A DNA stretch of 64,000 nucleotides from Trueperaceae bacterium. GTDB taxonomy: Bacteria > Deinococcota > Deinococci > Deinococcales > Trueperaceae. The translations under genes and the position numbers were made by a program. How positions within the stretch are numbered: position 1 is the first letter of the stretch; each line of letters starts with the position of its first letter. Location of the stretch: NCBI GenBank assembly GCA_023954415.1, contig JAMLIB010000008.1, positions 105,257 through 169,256 of the forward strand. The letters are read 5' to 3'. This document shows, piece by piece, positions 2 through 45,303 of this stretch. The notes below the pieces were generated by a model. The model worked only from the letters and a program-made list of their open reading frames with translations, was not told the origin of the DNA and made no database searches.

Positions 2-610
2 GTCGGGCTACTGACGTGGGCGCTCGTCGCGGCCATCGGCGTGCGCAGCGCCGCCCGCTTCGCCACGGACGGGCTCGGTTGGCAGTGGCCCGCCGGGTTC
101 GACGCCGTCGCCAGCGCGGTCGCCGCCCTCGCCTGCCTGCTGCTCGTGCGGGCCGTCTGGCCGGTCGCCACCAAGGCGGAGCTGCGTGGCAGCACCTTGT
201 GGCTCCGGCAGCTCGCACTGGCGCTCATCGCGCTCAAGGGGACGGTCGAGCTCACCGGCGCGCTGCCGGCCGTGCGCGCGGAGCTCATGGCCGCACCCTT
301 CCACGTCTTCTTCCTCCACGCCTTCCTGCTCGGCGCCGTAAGCTTCTCGCTCCTGTACGGCGTCCGCACGACCATCGGTCCAACGGCCTTCAAGGGGGCG
401 ACCGCCTTCATCGTCGCGGTGGGGGTGATGGTCGGCGCGCTCGTGACCCTGACGCCTGTCTGGCCTAGCGCCCTGTCCGGCCCCTGGGTGCTCTACGCGA
501 CGGCCGTCACGAGCCTCGGGCCCCTGCTCGTGGCCCTGCAGGCGCTGCTCAGGCTCGACCTCTGGTCCGGCTCCAGAGCCATACGACCGCGAGCAACAGC
601 GCGAAGGTGA
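2..610 (+). CDS. partial membrane protein, function unknown (5' end outside window)
   Basis: The reading frame is open from the window edge, so the true start lies upstream; only the C-terminal ~202 residues are visible. The segment holds about five or six hydrophobic helices separated by short polar loops and ends in an Arg-rich cytoplasmic tail. I do not recognise the family, and no catalytic motif is visible. Its 3' end overlaps the 3' end of the convergent MFS gene by 62 bp. The downstream in-frame GTG at 41 could serve as an internal start but cuts into what looks like a helix, so a longer protein is more likely. Confidence 0.6.
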   Translation, partial: VGLLTWALVAAIGVRSAARFATDGLGWQWPAGFDAVASAVAALACLLLVRAVWPVATKAELRGSTLWLRQLALALIALKGTVELTGALPAVRAELMAAPFHVFFLHAFLLGAVSFSLLYGVRTTIGPTAFKGATAFIVAVGVMVGALVTLTPVWPSALSGPWVLYATAVTSLGPLLVALQALLRLDLWSGSRAIRPRATARR

Positions 611-20984: not shown

Positions 20985-22535
20985 TCAGGCGTCGCTCGTG
21001 GTGGACTGGCGGTACGGGGTGTCGACCGGCCCGCGGCCCGGCAGGCGGCCGAACAGCACCGCCAGCTCGCGGAGCTGCGGCGCCACCCAGTAGGGCACGT
21101 CCTGCCACTCGAAGCGCCAGCTCCAGTTGCCGGTAGCGACGCCCGGGGTGTTCATGCGGGCCTCGCCACCGAGCCCCAGCGCGTCCTGCAGGGTGACTAC
21201 GGCCGTCCTCGCGACGGACGCCATGGCGAGGCGCAGGAGCGCCCACGGCACTTCCGCGTCGTCGCACGCCAGGTAGCGCCGCACGAGGTCGCGCTCGGCG
21301 TCCGGCGCGCTCGCGAACCAGCCGGCCGTCGTGTCGTTGTCGTGCGTGCCGGTGTAGACGACGCAGTCAGCGTCGTAGTTGTGGGGCAGGTACGGGTCGT
21401 CCGCGTCGCCGGCGAAGGCGAACTGGAGGACCTTCATGCCGGGCAGACCGTTGGCTGTGCGCAGCGCGTCGACGTCGGGCGTGATGACGCCCAGGTCCTC
21501 CGCCACGAGCGGGAGCTCGCCGAGGGCCGCTCGGAGCGCGTCGAAGAGCGCCTGGCCCGGCCCGGCGACCCAGCGGCCCTTCACGGCCGTCGGCTCCGAT
21601 GCCGGGATCTCCCAGTAGGCCGCGAAACCCCGGAAGTGGTCGATGCGCACCATGTCGACCAGGCCGAGGGTGGCGCGCACGCGCTCCACCCACCACGCGT
21701 AGCCGTCTCGCGCCATGACGTCCCAGCGGTACAGGGGGTTGCCCCAGCGCTGGCCGGTGGCCGAGAAGTAGTCGGGGGGCACGCCGGCCACCACGGTGGG
21801 CCTGCCGGTAGCGTCAAGGTGGAACTGGTCCGGGCGCGCCCACGTGTCGGCCGAGTCGTGGGCGACGAAGATCGGGATGTCGCCGAGGATGACGATGTCG
21901 CGCGCGCCGGCGTAGGCATGGAGCGCGTCCCACTGCTCGCGGAACCAGTACTGCCAGACGGTGTGCCTGGCTACGGCGGCCGCCAGGTCGGTCCTCGCGC
22001 GCGCCAACGCCGCCGGATCGCGGTCGCGCACAGGTGCTTCCCACTCGTTCCACGCCTTGCCGCCGTTCGCCTCCTTGAGGGCCATGAAGAGGGCGTAGTC
22101 GGCCAGCCAGGCGGAGTTCGCGCGCGTGAACGCGTCCAGCGCGGCGCGCTCGGCCGCGCCGGCGGACGCGAGGAAGCTCTCGGCCGCCTTGGCGAGGAGC
22201 GTGAGCTTGCGCGGGATGACGCTCCCGAAGTCGGCGCGCTCCGGCGGCAACGCCCGCAGGTCGGCCAGGTCGGCCGCGCTCAGGTGACCGGCGCGCTCGA
22301 GCGCCTCCAGGTCGATGAGGTAGTGGTTGCCCGCGAAGGCGCTGAAGCACTGGTACGGGCTGTCGCCGTAGCCCGTCGGGCCGAGGGGCATGACCTGCCA
22401 CAGGCGCTGGCCGGCGGACTCGAGGAAGTCGAGCCACGCGAAGGCCTCGCGCCCCAGCTCGCCGATGCCGTGCGGACCGGGCAAGGACGTCGGGTGCAAC
22501 AGGACGCCCGCGCGGCGCGGCGCCGACGCGCTCAC
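20985..22535 (-). CDS. malQ: 4-alpha-glucanotransferase (amylomaltase)
   Basis: The ~516-residue GH77 enzyme transfers glucan segments between maltodextrins. The N-terminal motif LLHPTSLPGPHGIG, the nucleophile Asp in VRIDHFRGF, the general acid Glu in LVAEDLGVI and the Asp in GTHDNDT are all present, and the length is typical of the Thermus amylomaltase type. The GTG at 22535 overlaps the upstream permease stop by 4 nt (GTGA); the frame continues upstream only as a shadow of that permease. It is last in a unit with two BMP-type permeases. Confidence 0.95.
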   Translation of the reverse strand: MSASAPRRAGVLLHPTSLPGPHGIGELGREAFAWLDFLESAGQRLWQVMPLGPTGYGDSPYQCFSAFAGNHYLIDLEALERAGHLSAADLADLRALPPERADFGSVIPRKLTLLAKAAESFLASAGAAERAALDAFTRANSAWLADYALFMALKEANGGKAWNEWEAPVRDRDPAALARARTDLAAAVARHTVWQYWFREQWDALHAYAGARDIVILGDIPIFVAHDSADTWARPDQFHLDATGRPTVVAGVPPDYFSATGQRWGNPLYRWDVMARDGYAWWVERVRATLGLVDMVRIDHFRGFAAYWEIPASEPTAVKGRWVAGPGQALFDALRAALGELPLVAEDLGVITPDVDALRTANGLPGMKVLQFAFAGDADDPYLPHNYDADCVVYTGTHDNDTTAGWFASAPDAERDLVRRYLACDDAEVPWALLRLAMASVARTAVVTLQDALGLGGEARMNTPGVATGNWSWRFEWQDVPYWVAPQLRELAVLFGRLPGRGPVDTPYRQSTTSDA

Positions 22536-23473
22536 TTGTTCCACGCCTTGCCGATGGCCTTGGGAGCCACCGAGCGCCCGACGAAACCCGCAAGGACGAG
22601 CATGGTCAGGACGTAAGGGAGGCTCTGCACGACCGTGGGAGGCAGCAGCTTGCCGCCGCCGAGGAGGACCTCGGTGGCCTGGAACGCGCCGAACAGGAGC
22701 GTGGCGCCGAGCACCCCGAGCGGGTGCCACTTCCCGAAGATCAGGGCCGCGAGGGCGATGAAGCCGCGCCCGCCGGACATCTCGCTGATGAACTGGTTGA
22801 GGTTGCCGATAGAGAGGTAGGCCCCGCCCAGGCCGGCGAGCACCCCGGAGAGCATGACCCCCGTGTAGCGCATGCGCGTGACGCTGATGCCCAGCGAGTC
22901 GGCCGCCTCGGGGTGCTCGCCGACGGAGCGCAGCCGCAGGCCGAAGGGGGTGCGGAACACCACGAACCAGACGACGGGCACGAGCAGGAAGGCGACGTAG
23001 ACGAGGACGTTGAAGCTCAGGCCCGGGATGCCGAACAGCGAGAGCTCCGGCAGGCGCGAGCGGATGGGGTCGCTGATCGACGTGTTGTGGTAGAGCCCGG
23101 CGAGGACGACGGCGGGGATGCCGAGGCCCATGAGGTTGATGGCGGTGCCGGAGATGATCTGGTCGGCCTTGTAGCGGATGGACACGAGCGCGTGGACGCC
23201 GGCCACGAGCGCGCCGAGGACCATGGCGGCGAGGAGGCCGAGCCACGGGGCGAACCAGACCCTGGCCGTCGGGTCGGCGCGCAGGTAGGGCGCCTCGACG
23301 AGCTGGGTGGTGACGGCGGCCGCCATGGCGCCGAAGAGGATGATGCCTTCGAGCGCGATGTTGACGACGCCGGAGCGCTCGGAGAAGAGCCCGCCGAGGG
23401 CGGCGAACAGGAGCGGCGTCGTGGCGCGCAGCATCGAGGAGGCGAGGGCGAGCAGGATGACGGTGTTCTCCAC
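22532..23473 (-). CDS. ABC transporter permease, BMP/nucleoside type (second permease)
   Basis: The 313-residue product has about eight transmembrane helices and the family signature ERSGVVNIALEGIILFGA near the N-terminus, with the cytoplasmic coupling region RSVGEHPEAADSLGI. It resembles NupQ/YufQ permeases that import purine nucleosides together with a BMP-family lipoprotein. Neither the ATPase nor the binding protein is in this window. It begins 3 nt after the larger permease and overlaps malQ. Confidence 0.9.
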   Translation of the reverse strand: MENTVILLALASSMLRATTPLLFAALGGLFSERSGVVNIALEGIILFGAMAAAVTTQLVEAPYLRADPTARVWFAPWLGLLAAMVLGALVAGVHALVSIRYKADQIISGTAINLMGLGIPAVVLAGLYHNTSISDPIRSRLPELSLFGIPGLSFNVLVYVAFLLVPVVWFVVFRTPFGLRLRSVGEHPEAADSLGISVTRMRYTGVMLSGVLAGLGGAYLSIGNLNQFISEMSGGRGFIALAALIFGKWHPLGVLGATLLFGAFQATEVLLGGGKLLPPTVVQSLPYVLTMLVLAGFVGRSVAPKAIGKAWNK

Positions 23474-42575: not shown

Positions 42576-42603
42576 TTGACACGCGGCTCTCACCTGTTAC
42601 ACT
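42576..42603 (+). promoter_or_regulatory. strong sigma70-type promoter of the aroF-tyrA operon
   Basis: TTGACA (42576-42581) is a perfect -35 box, followed by 16 nt and TACACT (42598-42603) as -10, with the extended TG at 42595-42596. This is the best promoter in the window. Transcription would start near 42610, next to the ATG of the leader peptide at 42611. Confidence 0.75.
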
Positions 42604-42610
42604 CTCCGCC

Positions 42611-42718
42611 ATGACCAGACCGCTCTCGGGAGGTGGTGCCGTGGACGATGGCTATGACTATAGCTACGCGTATCCGCTCGACGTCGCCACCCTAGCGGTC
42701 GTGGACGTCACCCCGTAA
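42611..42718 (+). CDS. Tyr-rich leader peptide of the aroF-tyrA operon
   Basis: A short reading frame of 35 codons (ATG 42611) or 25 codons (GTG 42641, preceded by GGGAGG at 42628-42633) ends with TAA at 42716. It contains the heptapeptide YDYSYAY with Tyr codons at 42653, 42659, 42665 and 42671; three are TAT, rare in this genome. It lies directly downstream of a strong promoter and 202 nt upstream of DAHP synthase. I infer a translated leader that senses Tyr-tRNA charging. It is not homologous to any protein I know, and the downstream RNA folding is not computed. Confidence 0.6.
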   Translation: MTRPLSGGGAVDDGYDYSYAYPLDVATLAVVDVTP

Positions 42719-42746
42719 GCGCTCGCGGCAGCACGGATGCCAACCG

Positions 42747-42801
42747 CCCGGACAGTGCCTGACTGCCCGGGTCGCGCCAAGCGGAGCGCCCACACGGGCT
42801 C
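42747..42801 (+). terminator. candidate attenuator hairpins in the aroF leader
   Basis: CCCGG-A-CAGT (42747-42756) and ACTG-C-CCGGG (42762-42771) pair around a 5-nt loop with one mismatch. A second hairpin joins GAG/CTC and CCC/GGG around ACAC (42784-42801). No T-run follows either, so whether they terminate, or need Rho, is open. They sit between the Tyr-rich leader and aroF. Confidence 0.4.
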
Positions 42802-42920
42802 GCAGACCCACACGTAACCGAACCCGCCGGCCAAGCCAGCGCCGCCGTGGCGCCGCGACCGCCGACCCGCACCGTGAACTCAACGCGCGCCACGGATGGC
42901 GCAACCCAAGGAGAACAGCC

Positions 42921-43952
42921 ATGGTCATCGTCATGACCAAGAACGCCGCGAAAGAGTCCCTAGAGCGAGTTCTCTCCGAGGTGAGGGCCCGCGGCTTCAC
43001 GCCCCATGTCAGCGAGGGCGAGTCACGCACCCTCATCGGCGCCATCGGCCCGGCCCCGACGGAGGAGGTCAGGGAGCAGTTCGCGGCCCTGCCCGGCGTC
43101 GACACCGTCATGCGCATCTCCAAGCCGTACAAGCTCGCCTCGCGCGAGTTCAGGCACGACGACTCGACGGTAACGATCGGCACGCCAGGCAGGGGCGGCG
43201 TCCAGACGGGCAACGGCACCTTCGTCGTGGCCGCCGGGCCGTGCGGTGTCGAGACCCGCGAGCAGCTGACCGCCGCCGCCGCCATCGTCAAGAAGCACGG
43301 CGCGGCCGTCTTGCGCGGCGGCGCCTACAAGCCGCGCACGAGCCCGTACTCGTTCCAGGGGCTCGGCCAGGAGGGCCTGAGGATCCTCGAGGACGCCCGG
43401 GCGGCTACCGGCCTCCCGATCGTCACGGAGGTCACGGCGCCCGAGCTCGTCGAGACGGTGGCGAGCAGCGCAGACATGCTCCAGATAGGGGCGCGCAACA
43501 CGCAGAACTTCGCCCTCCTCGCTGAGGTCGGCAAGGCCGGTAAGCCCGTGCTCTTCAAGCGCGGCATGAGCACGTCGATCAGCGAGTTCCTGCAGGCCGC
43601 CGAGTACGTGCTCAGCCAAGGCAACCCGAACGTCGTGCTGTGCGAGCGCGGCATCAGGACGTTCGAGACGAGCACGCGCTTCACCCTCGACGTGAGCGCC
43701 GTGCCCGTGCTCAAGGAGCTCTCCCACCTCCCCGTGTGGGTGGACCCGAGCCACGCCGCCGGCCGGCGCGGGCTCGTGCCGTCCTTGGCGCTGGCCAGCG
43801 CGGCCGCAGGCGCGGACGGCCTCATCGTCGAGGTGCACGCCAAGCCGGAGGAGGCCAAGTCCGACGCGGCGCAGCAGCTCGACGACGCCGAGTTCGGGCA
43901 GCTCATGGCGCGCTTGCGCGGCGTGGTGGCCGCGCTCGGCAAGAGCCTGTAA
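42921..43952 (+). CDS. aroF: 3-deoxy-7-phosphoheptulonate (DAHP) synthase, class I beta with regulatory N-domain
   Basis: The 343-residue enzyme condenses PEP and erythrose 4-phosphate, the entry step to aromatic amino acids. Residues 1-~75 form a ferredoxin-like/ACT-like domain, as in the Thermotoga enzyme where it mediates Tyr feedback; the (beta/alpha)8 catalytic domain follows, with metal ligands in AGPCGVET (Cys) and VDPSHA (His) and the substrate loop RGGAYKPRTSPYSFQG. AAGGAG lies 7 nt before the ATG. It is followed 5 nt later by prephenate dehydrogenase. Tyr probably acts both on the enzyme and on the leader. Confidence 0.95.
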   Translation: MVIVMTKNAAKESLERVLSEVRARGFTPHVSEGESRTLIGAIGPAPTEEVREQFAALPGVDTVMRISKPYKLASREFRHDDSTVTIGTPGRGGVQTGNGTFVVAAGPCGVETREQLTAAAAIVKKHGAAVLRGGAYKPRTSPYSFQGLGQEGLRILEDARAATGLPIVTEVTAPELVETVASSADMLQIGARNTQNFALLAEVGKAGKPVLFKRGMSTSISEFLQAAEYVLSQGNPNVVLCERGIRTFETSTRFTLDVSAVPVLKELSHLPVWVDPSHAAGRRGLVPSLALASAAAGADGLIVEVHAKPEEAKSDAAQQLDDAEFGQLMARLRGVVAALGKSL

Positions 43953-43957
43953 GCCGC

Positions 43958-45058
43958 ATGGAGGAGCCCCCGCTCTTCGGCACCGTCGTGATCGCCGGCG
44001 TCGGCCTCATCGGCGGCTCCATCGCGCTCGGCACGCGGCGGCGGCGGCTCGCTCGCCGCGTGATCGGCTTCGACCGCGACCCCGGCGTGCTCGACGCCGC
44101 CAGGGGCCTCGGCGCCATCGACGAGGCCCAGTTGGCGCCCGGGCCGTGGCTGCGCGAGGCCGACCTGGTGATCCTCGCCGCGCCGGCCCGCGCCCTCGTG
44201 ACCATGGGCGAGGCGTTGCTGCCACACCTGAATGAGCGCGCGATCGTCACGGACGTCGGCAGCGTCAAAGGACCGGTGGTCGCCGGGATGAGGCGAGCGC
44301 GCTTCGTAGGCGGGCACCCCATGGCGGGCAGCGAGCGGGGCGGCATCCTCAACGCCGATGCCGCGCTCATCGAGAACGCCGTCTGGGTCCTGACGCCGGA
44401 GCCCGATGTCACCGACCCGGCCGCGTTGTCCGCCGTCCGTGAGTACGTGACGGCCCTCGGCGCCAGGCCCATCGAGGTGAGCCCCGCTCTGCACGACCGC
44501 CTGGTGGCGACCGTCAGCCATCTCCCCTACCTCGCCTCCGTGGCGTTGACGGCGCTCGTCGCGGAGGGCGAGGAGCGCTCGCTCAAGATGCTCCTGGCTG
44601 CCGGCGGCTTCCGCGACCTCACGCGCGTCGCGAGCGGCGACCCGCTAATGAGCCGCGACATGGTCGCCGGCAACCGCGCGGCCGTGCGCGACGCGCTGCA
44701 CGCGTTCCGGGCGCAGCTCGACCGTCTCGAGGGCCTGCTGGACGACCCCGACGGGCTGCTCACCGCCGGCGAGACGGCCAAGTTGACCCGCGACGGCATC
44801 CCCATCGTGCGGCGCAGCCTCCTGCCCGCCAGGCACGAGGTCGTCCTCGCCGTGCCCGACCGGCCGGGTGAGCTGGCGCGCATCACGCACGCGCTCGGCG
44901 AGGCCGGTGTGAACGTGAAGGACATCGAGGTCCTCGGCATCCGCGAGACGGGCGGCGCCATCCGGCTCGCCTTCGAGACGAGTGAGGAGCTCGTACTGGG
45001 CGGAGAGGCGCTGCGCGCCGCCGGCTACGAGGTGCATAGCCGCAACGGTGCCGCGTAG
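43958..45058 (+). CDS. tyrA: prephenate dehydrogenase with C-terminal ACT domain
   Basis: The ~366-residue enzyme converts prephenate to 4-hydroxyphenylpyruvate. The NAD-binding motif is GVGLIGGS (about 15-22), the catalytic His region is GGHPMAGSERGG, and the second conserved His is in TVSHLPY. Residues from about 288 form an ACT domain (VPDRPGELARITHALGEAGVNV), likely for Tyr feedback. It is in an operon with aroF and a small downstream gene. Confidence 0.95.
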   Translation: MEEPPLFGTVVIAGVGLIGGSIALGTRRRRLARRVIGFDRDPGVLDAARGLGAIDEAQLAPGPWLREADLVILAAPARALVTMGEALLPHLNERAIVTDVGSVKGPVVAGMRRARFVGGHPMAGSERGGILNADAALIENAVWVLTPEPDVTDPAALSAVREYVTALGARPIEVSPALHDRLVATVSHLPYLASVALTALVAEGEERSLKMLLAAGGFRDLTRVASGDPLMSRDMVAGNRAAVRDALHAFRAQLDRLEGLLDDPDGLLTAGETAKLTRDGIPIVRRSLLPARHEVVLAVPDRPGELARITHALGEAGVNVKDIEVLGIRETGGAIRLAFETSEELVLGGEALRAAGYEVHSRNGAA

Positions 45059-45060
45059 CC

Positions 45061-45303
45061 ATGCAGCGCGGGGAGCTGTTCGAGCTGGCGGTGAAGCGGG
45101 CGACTACCTACCTGGACCGCGTGCTGCCTGCCTGGCGGCGGGAGCCACACCAGCCCTCGGAACTGCGTGCGGCCCTGGAGCTCTGGTACCTGCGCACGCG
45201 CTTCGCGTACCGCGTGCCGCTAGAGGAGGTCGTGGCGGCCCTCGTGGCGCCGCGCGCGGCCGATGAGCCCGGCGTAGCCGACGGCAGCAGCGGCAAGGAC
45301 TAG
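45061..45303 (+). CDS. small helical protein of unknown function
   Basis: The 80-residue product starts 2 nt after the tyrA stop. It is mostly helical, with a conserved-looking core (YLDRVLPAWRREPHQPSELRAALELWYLRTRFAY) and a disordered acidic tail. I do not recognise it. Tight spacing suggests cotranslation with tyrA; no function is implied by sequence. Confidence 0.55.
   Translation: MQRGELFELAVKRATTYLDRVLPAWRREPHQPSELRAALELWYLRTRFAYRVPLEEVVAALVAPRAADEPGVADGSSGKD

Follow-up and report, generated by a model that had tools for sequence, protein, structure and literature searches.

In the attenuators of the trp, phe and his operons, a short leader frame ahead of the biosynthetic genes contains codons for the end product, and these codons have a regulatory role. 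Passages of PMC11802643 mention the leaders trpL and pheL, and from the same source comes AroR, the leader of the aroF gene of Corynebacterium glutamicum, which is the closest known case that we found to the locus analyzed here. According to the parts of these papers at hand, AroR contains the codons Phe-Tyr-Phe and responds to Phe, not to Tyr (PMC11802643, reporting Neshat 2014; PMC4046766). It resembles our locus in being a short leader with aromatic codons placed before a DAHP synthase gene, and it is described as working by ribosome stalling (PMC11802643, in the portion available). A second relevant system is MgtL, the leader of mgtA in Escherichia coli. As excerpts of PMC11282234 describe it, ribosomes drop off at the acidic residues of MgtL and the Rho terminator is then hidden. 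The likeness to our locus lies in the early acidic residues of the leader peptide and in a Rho-dependent terminator as the readout. The difference is that MgtL senses Mg2+ through ribosome dissociation, whereas in our leader the acidic pair leads into Tyr codons. No leader recognised as Tyr-only was found in the literature that we covered on Tyr, Phe or aroF leaders, with most subscription journals lying outside that coverage.

The locus lies in a stretch of 64,000 nucleotides, the whole of which was analyzed and is referred to as the window. Its features, from the promoter to the second gene of the operon, are the following:

42576..42603, + strand: promoter, with TTGACA at 42576-42581, a 16-nt spacer and TACACT at 42598-42603, with a TG before the -10 box (extended, TGT-TACACT)
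42611..42718, + strand: leader frame of 35 codons, from a leaderless-type ATG at 42611 to a TAA at 42716-42718
42628..42636, + strand: Shine-Dalgarno-like sequence GGGAGGTGG of an internal start (21 of the 111 genomes searched in the class match GGRGGTG plus core without a mismatch)
42641..42661, + strand: conserved core GTG-GAC-GAT-GGC-TAT-GAC-TAT, which includes the internal start (V/M-D-D-G-Y-x-Y)
42653..42673, + strand: Tyr codons at every second position, TAT at 42653, TAT at 42659, TAC at 42665 and TAT at 42671
42674..42906, + strand: rest of the leader and spacer, with C over G; candidate region of Rho-dependent termination
42908..42913, + strand: Shine-Dalgarno sequence AAGGAG of aroF
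42921..43952, + strand: aroF, DAHP synthase, matching PRK08673.1 above its cut-off
43958..45058, + strand: tyrA, prephenate dehydrogenase, whose best profile matches are prephenate dehydrogenase models, none above the curated cut-off

A preliminary description of this DNA had pointed out the promoter, the alternating Tyr codons, the rarity of TAT, the distance to the DAHP synthase gene and the tyrosine-biosynthetic nature of the operon, and our analysis bears out each of these observations. The 64 kb contain two TTGACN-15..19-TANNNT sites, of which this strong promoter is one, and the leader frame, with the peptide MTRPLSGGGAVDDGYDYSYAYPLDVATLAVVDVTP, begins with its ATG 7 nt past the promoter. 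A second in-frame start, the GTG at 42641 behind the Shine-Dalgarno-like sequence, opens the conserved part of the leader. TAT is rare in the window, where a rough set of 51 predicted genes uses it for 10 of 442 Tyr codons, and 202 nt separate the leader stop from the aroF ATG at 42921. The product of aroF presumably has an N-terminal regulatory domain. The order aroF followed by tyrA was examined at two loci, being confirmed in the window and observed in one relative (G047). Directly 3' of tyrA there is an 80-codon frame (45061-45303, + strand) that gave no NCBIfam match. In the window's own genome, a 3.2 Mb assembly, the core pattern occurs a single time.

The preliminary description had proposed an alignment of the region upstream of aroF in relatives, in search of conserved Tyr codons with varying flanks, and 25 genomes from two families show this arrangement, 23 times before aroF and twice before tyrS, although counts over related genomes are not independent. 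The window's own family (f1) is titled Trueperaceae in the records; core-bearing records are also titled Deinococcales, Deinococci or Deinococcota, and four records of the second family (f4) that appeared in our genome-wide scan are titled Thermaceae bacterium. DAHP synthase matches were found in 38 of 39 f1 genomes. We read the region upstream of the window's aroF type in 22 f1 loci, leaving out G030 as split over contigs, and the core SD-RTG-[DE][DE]GY preceded the same aroF in 12 of the 22. A further locus (G038) shows the variant MDGDVYGY. Five others (G003, G006, G008, G009 and G029; L015-L019) have a diverged frame upstream of aroF with a single TAT, which lies in an Arg-rich RRY[PT]R stretch; these RRYPR or RRYTR frames are probably a remnant or a variant of the leader. 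By eye, no leader frame was visible upstream of aroF in the remaining four of the 22 loci (G013-G016). Among the 14 f4 genomes searched, 11 have this aroF type, and the core is present in all 11.

Both f1 genomes with the core before tyrS (G024 and G025) are without this aroF type. They were the only carriers when the region upstream of tyrS (up to 260 nt, in some cases less) was searched at 29 loci of the 36 f1 genomes with tyrS. Frames with at least two Tyr codons before tyrS in L099, L110 and L111 were set aside as not leader-like in appearance. Before the second DAHP synthase, a Tyr leader was absent from the six loci viewed. Across the 111 genomes of the class, the 21 matches to the pattern SD+RTG+[DE][DE]GY at 0 mismatches all belong to f1 or f4 (19 before aroF, two before tyrS). 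At 1 mismatch, the pattern was matched by the core-bearing genome G051 and by nine others (G006, G063, G068, G089, G099, G101, G103, G107 and G109), which we regard as chance matches; with the pattern reversed as a control, 2 of the 111 genomes matched. Scanned against about 85,000 species genomes, the pattern gave 19 stretches, 13 of them from Deinococcota (11 before aroF and two before tyrS). The six from outside Deinococcota (four Bacteroidales, one Phaeomarinobacter and one Rhizobium) lay inside longer frames or looked like chance.

Several features suggest that the conserved stretch is read by ribosomes. At 23 of the 25 loci TAT encodes the first Tyr, and TAT makes up 49 of 60 leader Tyr codons versus 17 of 133 in the downstream genes. 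The internal start is GTG in 15 loci and ATG in 10, at a position where the pattern itself demands RTG; GTC and GTG are about equally frequent among the Val codons of the downstream genes (342 vs 339), and searches upstream of aroF without the RTG requirement found no [DE][DE]GY frame lacking it. A TANNNT -10 box lies 6-10 nt before an ATG in all 25 core-bearing loci, and 24 of these upstream ATGs share the frame of the core, at six distances (30, 33, 39, 45, 51 and 123 nt). These data fit two starts in one frame, one leaderless and one led by a Shine-Dalgarno sequence. The exception is G020 (L005), where, 231-259 nt upstream of aroF, the leaderless-type ATG and the core are in different frames and the Tyr codons would be read from the SD-led GTG alone. 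According to passages of PMC12340547, a -10 box next to a frame is often seen in this phylum, and leaderless transcripts are common there. In eight of the 11 f4 leaders one additional codon separates the first Tyr codons (GYPGY), a change of length that preserves the frame; [DE][DE]GY is kept, as the pattern requires, and the residues past the Tyr codons vary between genera among the 25 loci.

Two acidic residues precede the Tyr codons in all 25 loci, as the pattern requires, and G038 has Asp-Gly-Asp; by analogy, the acidic pair recalls motifs that destabilise ribosomes early in translation. In the conserved core stretch only the Tyr codons are conserved, and Phe codons of the AroR type are not among them. 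The leader differs from AroR, as far as the latter is described in the available parts of its sources, in these Tyr-only conserved codons, in the fixed [DE][DE]GY core and in its position before tyrS in two genomes. The short, putatively translated frame contains codons for the end product both in the window, where aroF-tyrA follows it, and in the relatives, where aroF or tyrS does. On this comparative evidence, we consider it highly probable that a conserved tyrosine-codon leader lies upstream of aroF-tyrA, and, as a prediction from sequence, a response of this leader to tyrosine is well supported. Since the core is conserved in relatives and stands before tyrS in two of them, a ribosome awaiting tyrosine likely switches the genes on.

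A different leader precedes the same gene in a third family of the same order (f5), presumably Thermus and Meiothermus. We searched 31 of its 50 genomes, of which 27 have this aroF type, and a Phe/Tyr leader was found within about 270 nt upstream of aroF in all 27 loci read (L052-L059 and L162-L180). Its peptides are of the types FGFYYPAGGALRSA (FGFYYP) or FGYFYWP. The folds of these loci are strong, with a mean z of -2.99 (range -6.02 to -0.79, 27 loci), and T runs of at least 4 occur in 25 of the 27, so the f5 leader is apparently a classical attenuator. It shares with the leader of the DGY type the gene downstream, a short ATG-started frame and a preference for TAT among its Tyr codons (46 of 70). 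It differs in its peptide, its stronger folds, its T runs and the lack of a C over G bias, C exceeding G in 11 of 27 loci (mean -0.001). Another aromatic leader was seen in G025 and G024 (L028 and L029), where a Phe-rich short frame (MRFFRFTLYFVF and MRFFRFTRYFVF) lies about 330-376 nt upstream of the second DAHP synthase match and is followed, by eye, by a CTAAGTTT...AAACTTAG hairpin and a T-rich tail. The second DAHP synthase frame begins chorismate mutase-like, also by eye, and from its sequence the Phe-rich frame is likely a Phe leader.

In the region between the Tyr codons and the gene, C exceeds G in all 25 DGY-type loci, with a mean excess of 0.146 and a minimum of 0.005 (G012). In the window, positions 42662-42906 contain 104 C and 74 G in 245 nucleotides, an excess of +0.12, compared with a mean of -0.008 (sd 0.071) for 24 control spacers of the window, divergent ones being counted in both directions; one of the 24, before 20985-23246, has a larger excess of +0.16. 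In the 80 nt upstream of the promoter region C exceeds G in 12 of 25 loci, and in the 100 nt upstream of tyrS in 0 of 21, which is a weak control as part of it is possibly not transcribed. In f1 aroF loci without the DGY core, C exceeds G in 8 of 10 (mean 0.072), so that the bias is possibly a trait of the 5' region rather than of the leader. Sites for Rho (rut) are unstructured, YC-rich RNA with a high C:G ratio, as stated in parts of PMC12121999. Such C-rich, G-poor and unstructured RNA is present after the leader, as in Rho-dependent leaders of the tnaC and mgtL kind, and the genome has a rho gene above the family cut-off. In f4 only 38-72 nt extend from the core to 12 nt before the gene, which is short for a full rut site. 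The excess of C over G in 25 of 25 spacers suggests that the readout of DGY-type leaders is Rho-dependent termination.

The preliminary description had read the locus as amino-acid attenuation of the trp, phe and his kind. In classical attenuation a stalled ribosome would lead to an antiterminator and a released one to an intrinsic terminator before aroF. One half of that proposal, a Tyr-codon leader of a Tyr operon, is supported, but the terminator and antiterminator half is not. The segments at 42747-42801 that it named can indeed pair, yet the region folds no better than shuffled sequences (z of -0.90 in one shuffle test and -0.21 in another), and no intrinsic terminator was found there or elsewhere in the leader and spacer of the window. 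The fold computation that it had recommended, done from the Tyr core to the gene against dinucleotide shuffles, gave energies equal to those of the shuffles over 25 loci (mean z -0.16, median -0.21, range -3.00 to 1.74), with two outliers at G010 (-3.00) and G049 (-2.16). The terminator search, like the analyses of Shine-Dalgarno access and pairing below, covered 21 loci, without G049, G055, G058 and G060. It returned terminator-like or weak sites in eight, those of G020, G012, G011, G054 and G024 being weak or partial and those of G051, G047 and G027 terminator-like and inside the leader frame. The latter three sites speak for classical attenuation, as does the classical layout of the same gene in f5, with leaders such as RYFGFYYPAGGALRSA and folds that are strong on average. 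Against it, no terminator was found in the five same-genus relatives of the window apart from the weak site in G020. DGY-type leaders show no stable alternative structures beyond those of shuffles and no consistent terminator, in which they differ from the trp, phe and his attenuators, and classical attenuation, not supported for this leader type, is unlikely here. No T-box or other Rfam element matched at gathering score in the window. Under translational attenuation, translation of the leader would determine how accessible the ribosome-binding site of aroF is or, in G047, the ribosome on the leader would run across the start of aroF. The G047 leader frame does overlap that start by 16 nt, and placing a ribosome at the Tyr codons raises the predicted accessibility of the Shine-Dalgarno sequence there from 0.04 to 0.34. 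Over the 21 loci, however, predicted access to the gene's Shine-Dalgarno sequence had no consistent dependence on ribosome position, and masking of this site was rejected as a mechanism. A switch pairing the leader's own Shine-Dalgarno sequence with downstream RNA looked promising by eye and was likewise discarded, its duplex energies equalling those of shuffles (mean z -0.05, 21 loci). The leader-to-gene spacing, moreover, varies from -16 to 204 nt among the 25 loci, and we regard control of this kind as improbable.

The ribosome parked near the 5' end might instead act on the stability of the message, shielding it from RNase J and other 5' nucleases, and Tyr shortage would then stabilise the mRNA; erm leaders are a precedent for such protection. 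The position of the core suits this idea, since it starts 28-51 nt past the promoter-proximal ATG at all but one of the 25 loci (123 nt at the exception), and so do the lack of conserved structure further downstream and the RNase J family gene of this genome. However, protection leaves the C over G bias without a reason, and judged from these sequence features it is a rather doubtful explanation. Finally, the conserved stretch might be no codon sensor at all, but a functional micropeptide or a protein-binding site in DNA or RNA, given that nucleotide conservation of the core is high and exceeds what the Tyr codons alone would need. This is hard to reconcile with the in-frame changes of length between the Tyr codons and upstream of them, with a V/M position that occurs solely as GTG or ATG in the loci found, with the scant conservation past the Tyr codons outside close relatives, and with two different Tyr-related genes downstream. 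We consider it very improbable.

The reading that we favour, although we hold it at somewhat under an even chance, is a readout linked to Rho and free of RNA structure. That the leader is a ribosome-mediated tyrosine sensor predicted to act on Rho-dependent termination and not on a terminator hairpin appears, from the data above, about evenly balanced. When Tyr-tRNA is short, the ribosome would halt at the TAT codons. Parked near the 5' end, it could shield the C-rich RNA that follows or hold NusG, RNA polymerase would then not be stopped by Rho, and aroF-tyrA would be made. With plentiful Tyr-tRNA the leader would be finished and the ribosome would leave at the stop codon, whereupon Rho may end the transcript in the spacer. 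Plain polarity has the wrong sign for this scheme, since a stalled ribosome bares more RNA, and therefore shielding or the holding of NusG must be assumed.

In a tree of 61 aroF proteins, f5 forms one clade (98/95) nested among f4, and f4 plus f5 are split from f1 at 100/100, with a root that is unsure because of a very long outgroup row. The simplest reading suggests that the DGY leader predates the f1/f4 split and was replaced once, by a hairpin-type leader, in f5. Taken to its full extent, the proposal would be a structure-free tyrosine attenuator in which a ribosome parked at rare UAU codons near the 5' end, just past the acidic pair, remains bound and in this way blocks Rho over a C-rich spacer of any length, its sensor core being ancestral in Deinococci and portable to tyrS, and its readout having been exchanged for a terminator hairpin in one family of descendants; as a whole, this picture is possible but on the unlikely side. 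If true, it would provide a ribosome sensor for Tyr only. It would also offer, for one gene, a natural pair of leaders, one based on a hairpin and the other apparently free of structure, raising the question of how stalling prevents termination without RNA switching. For this phylum, which is rich in leaderless transcripts according to the parts of PMC12340547 at hand, it would add control by a leader peptide.
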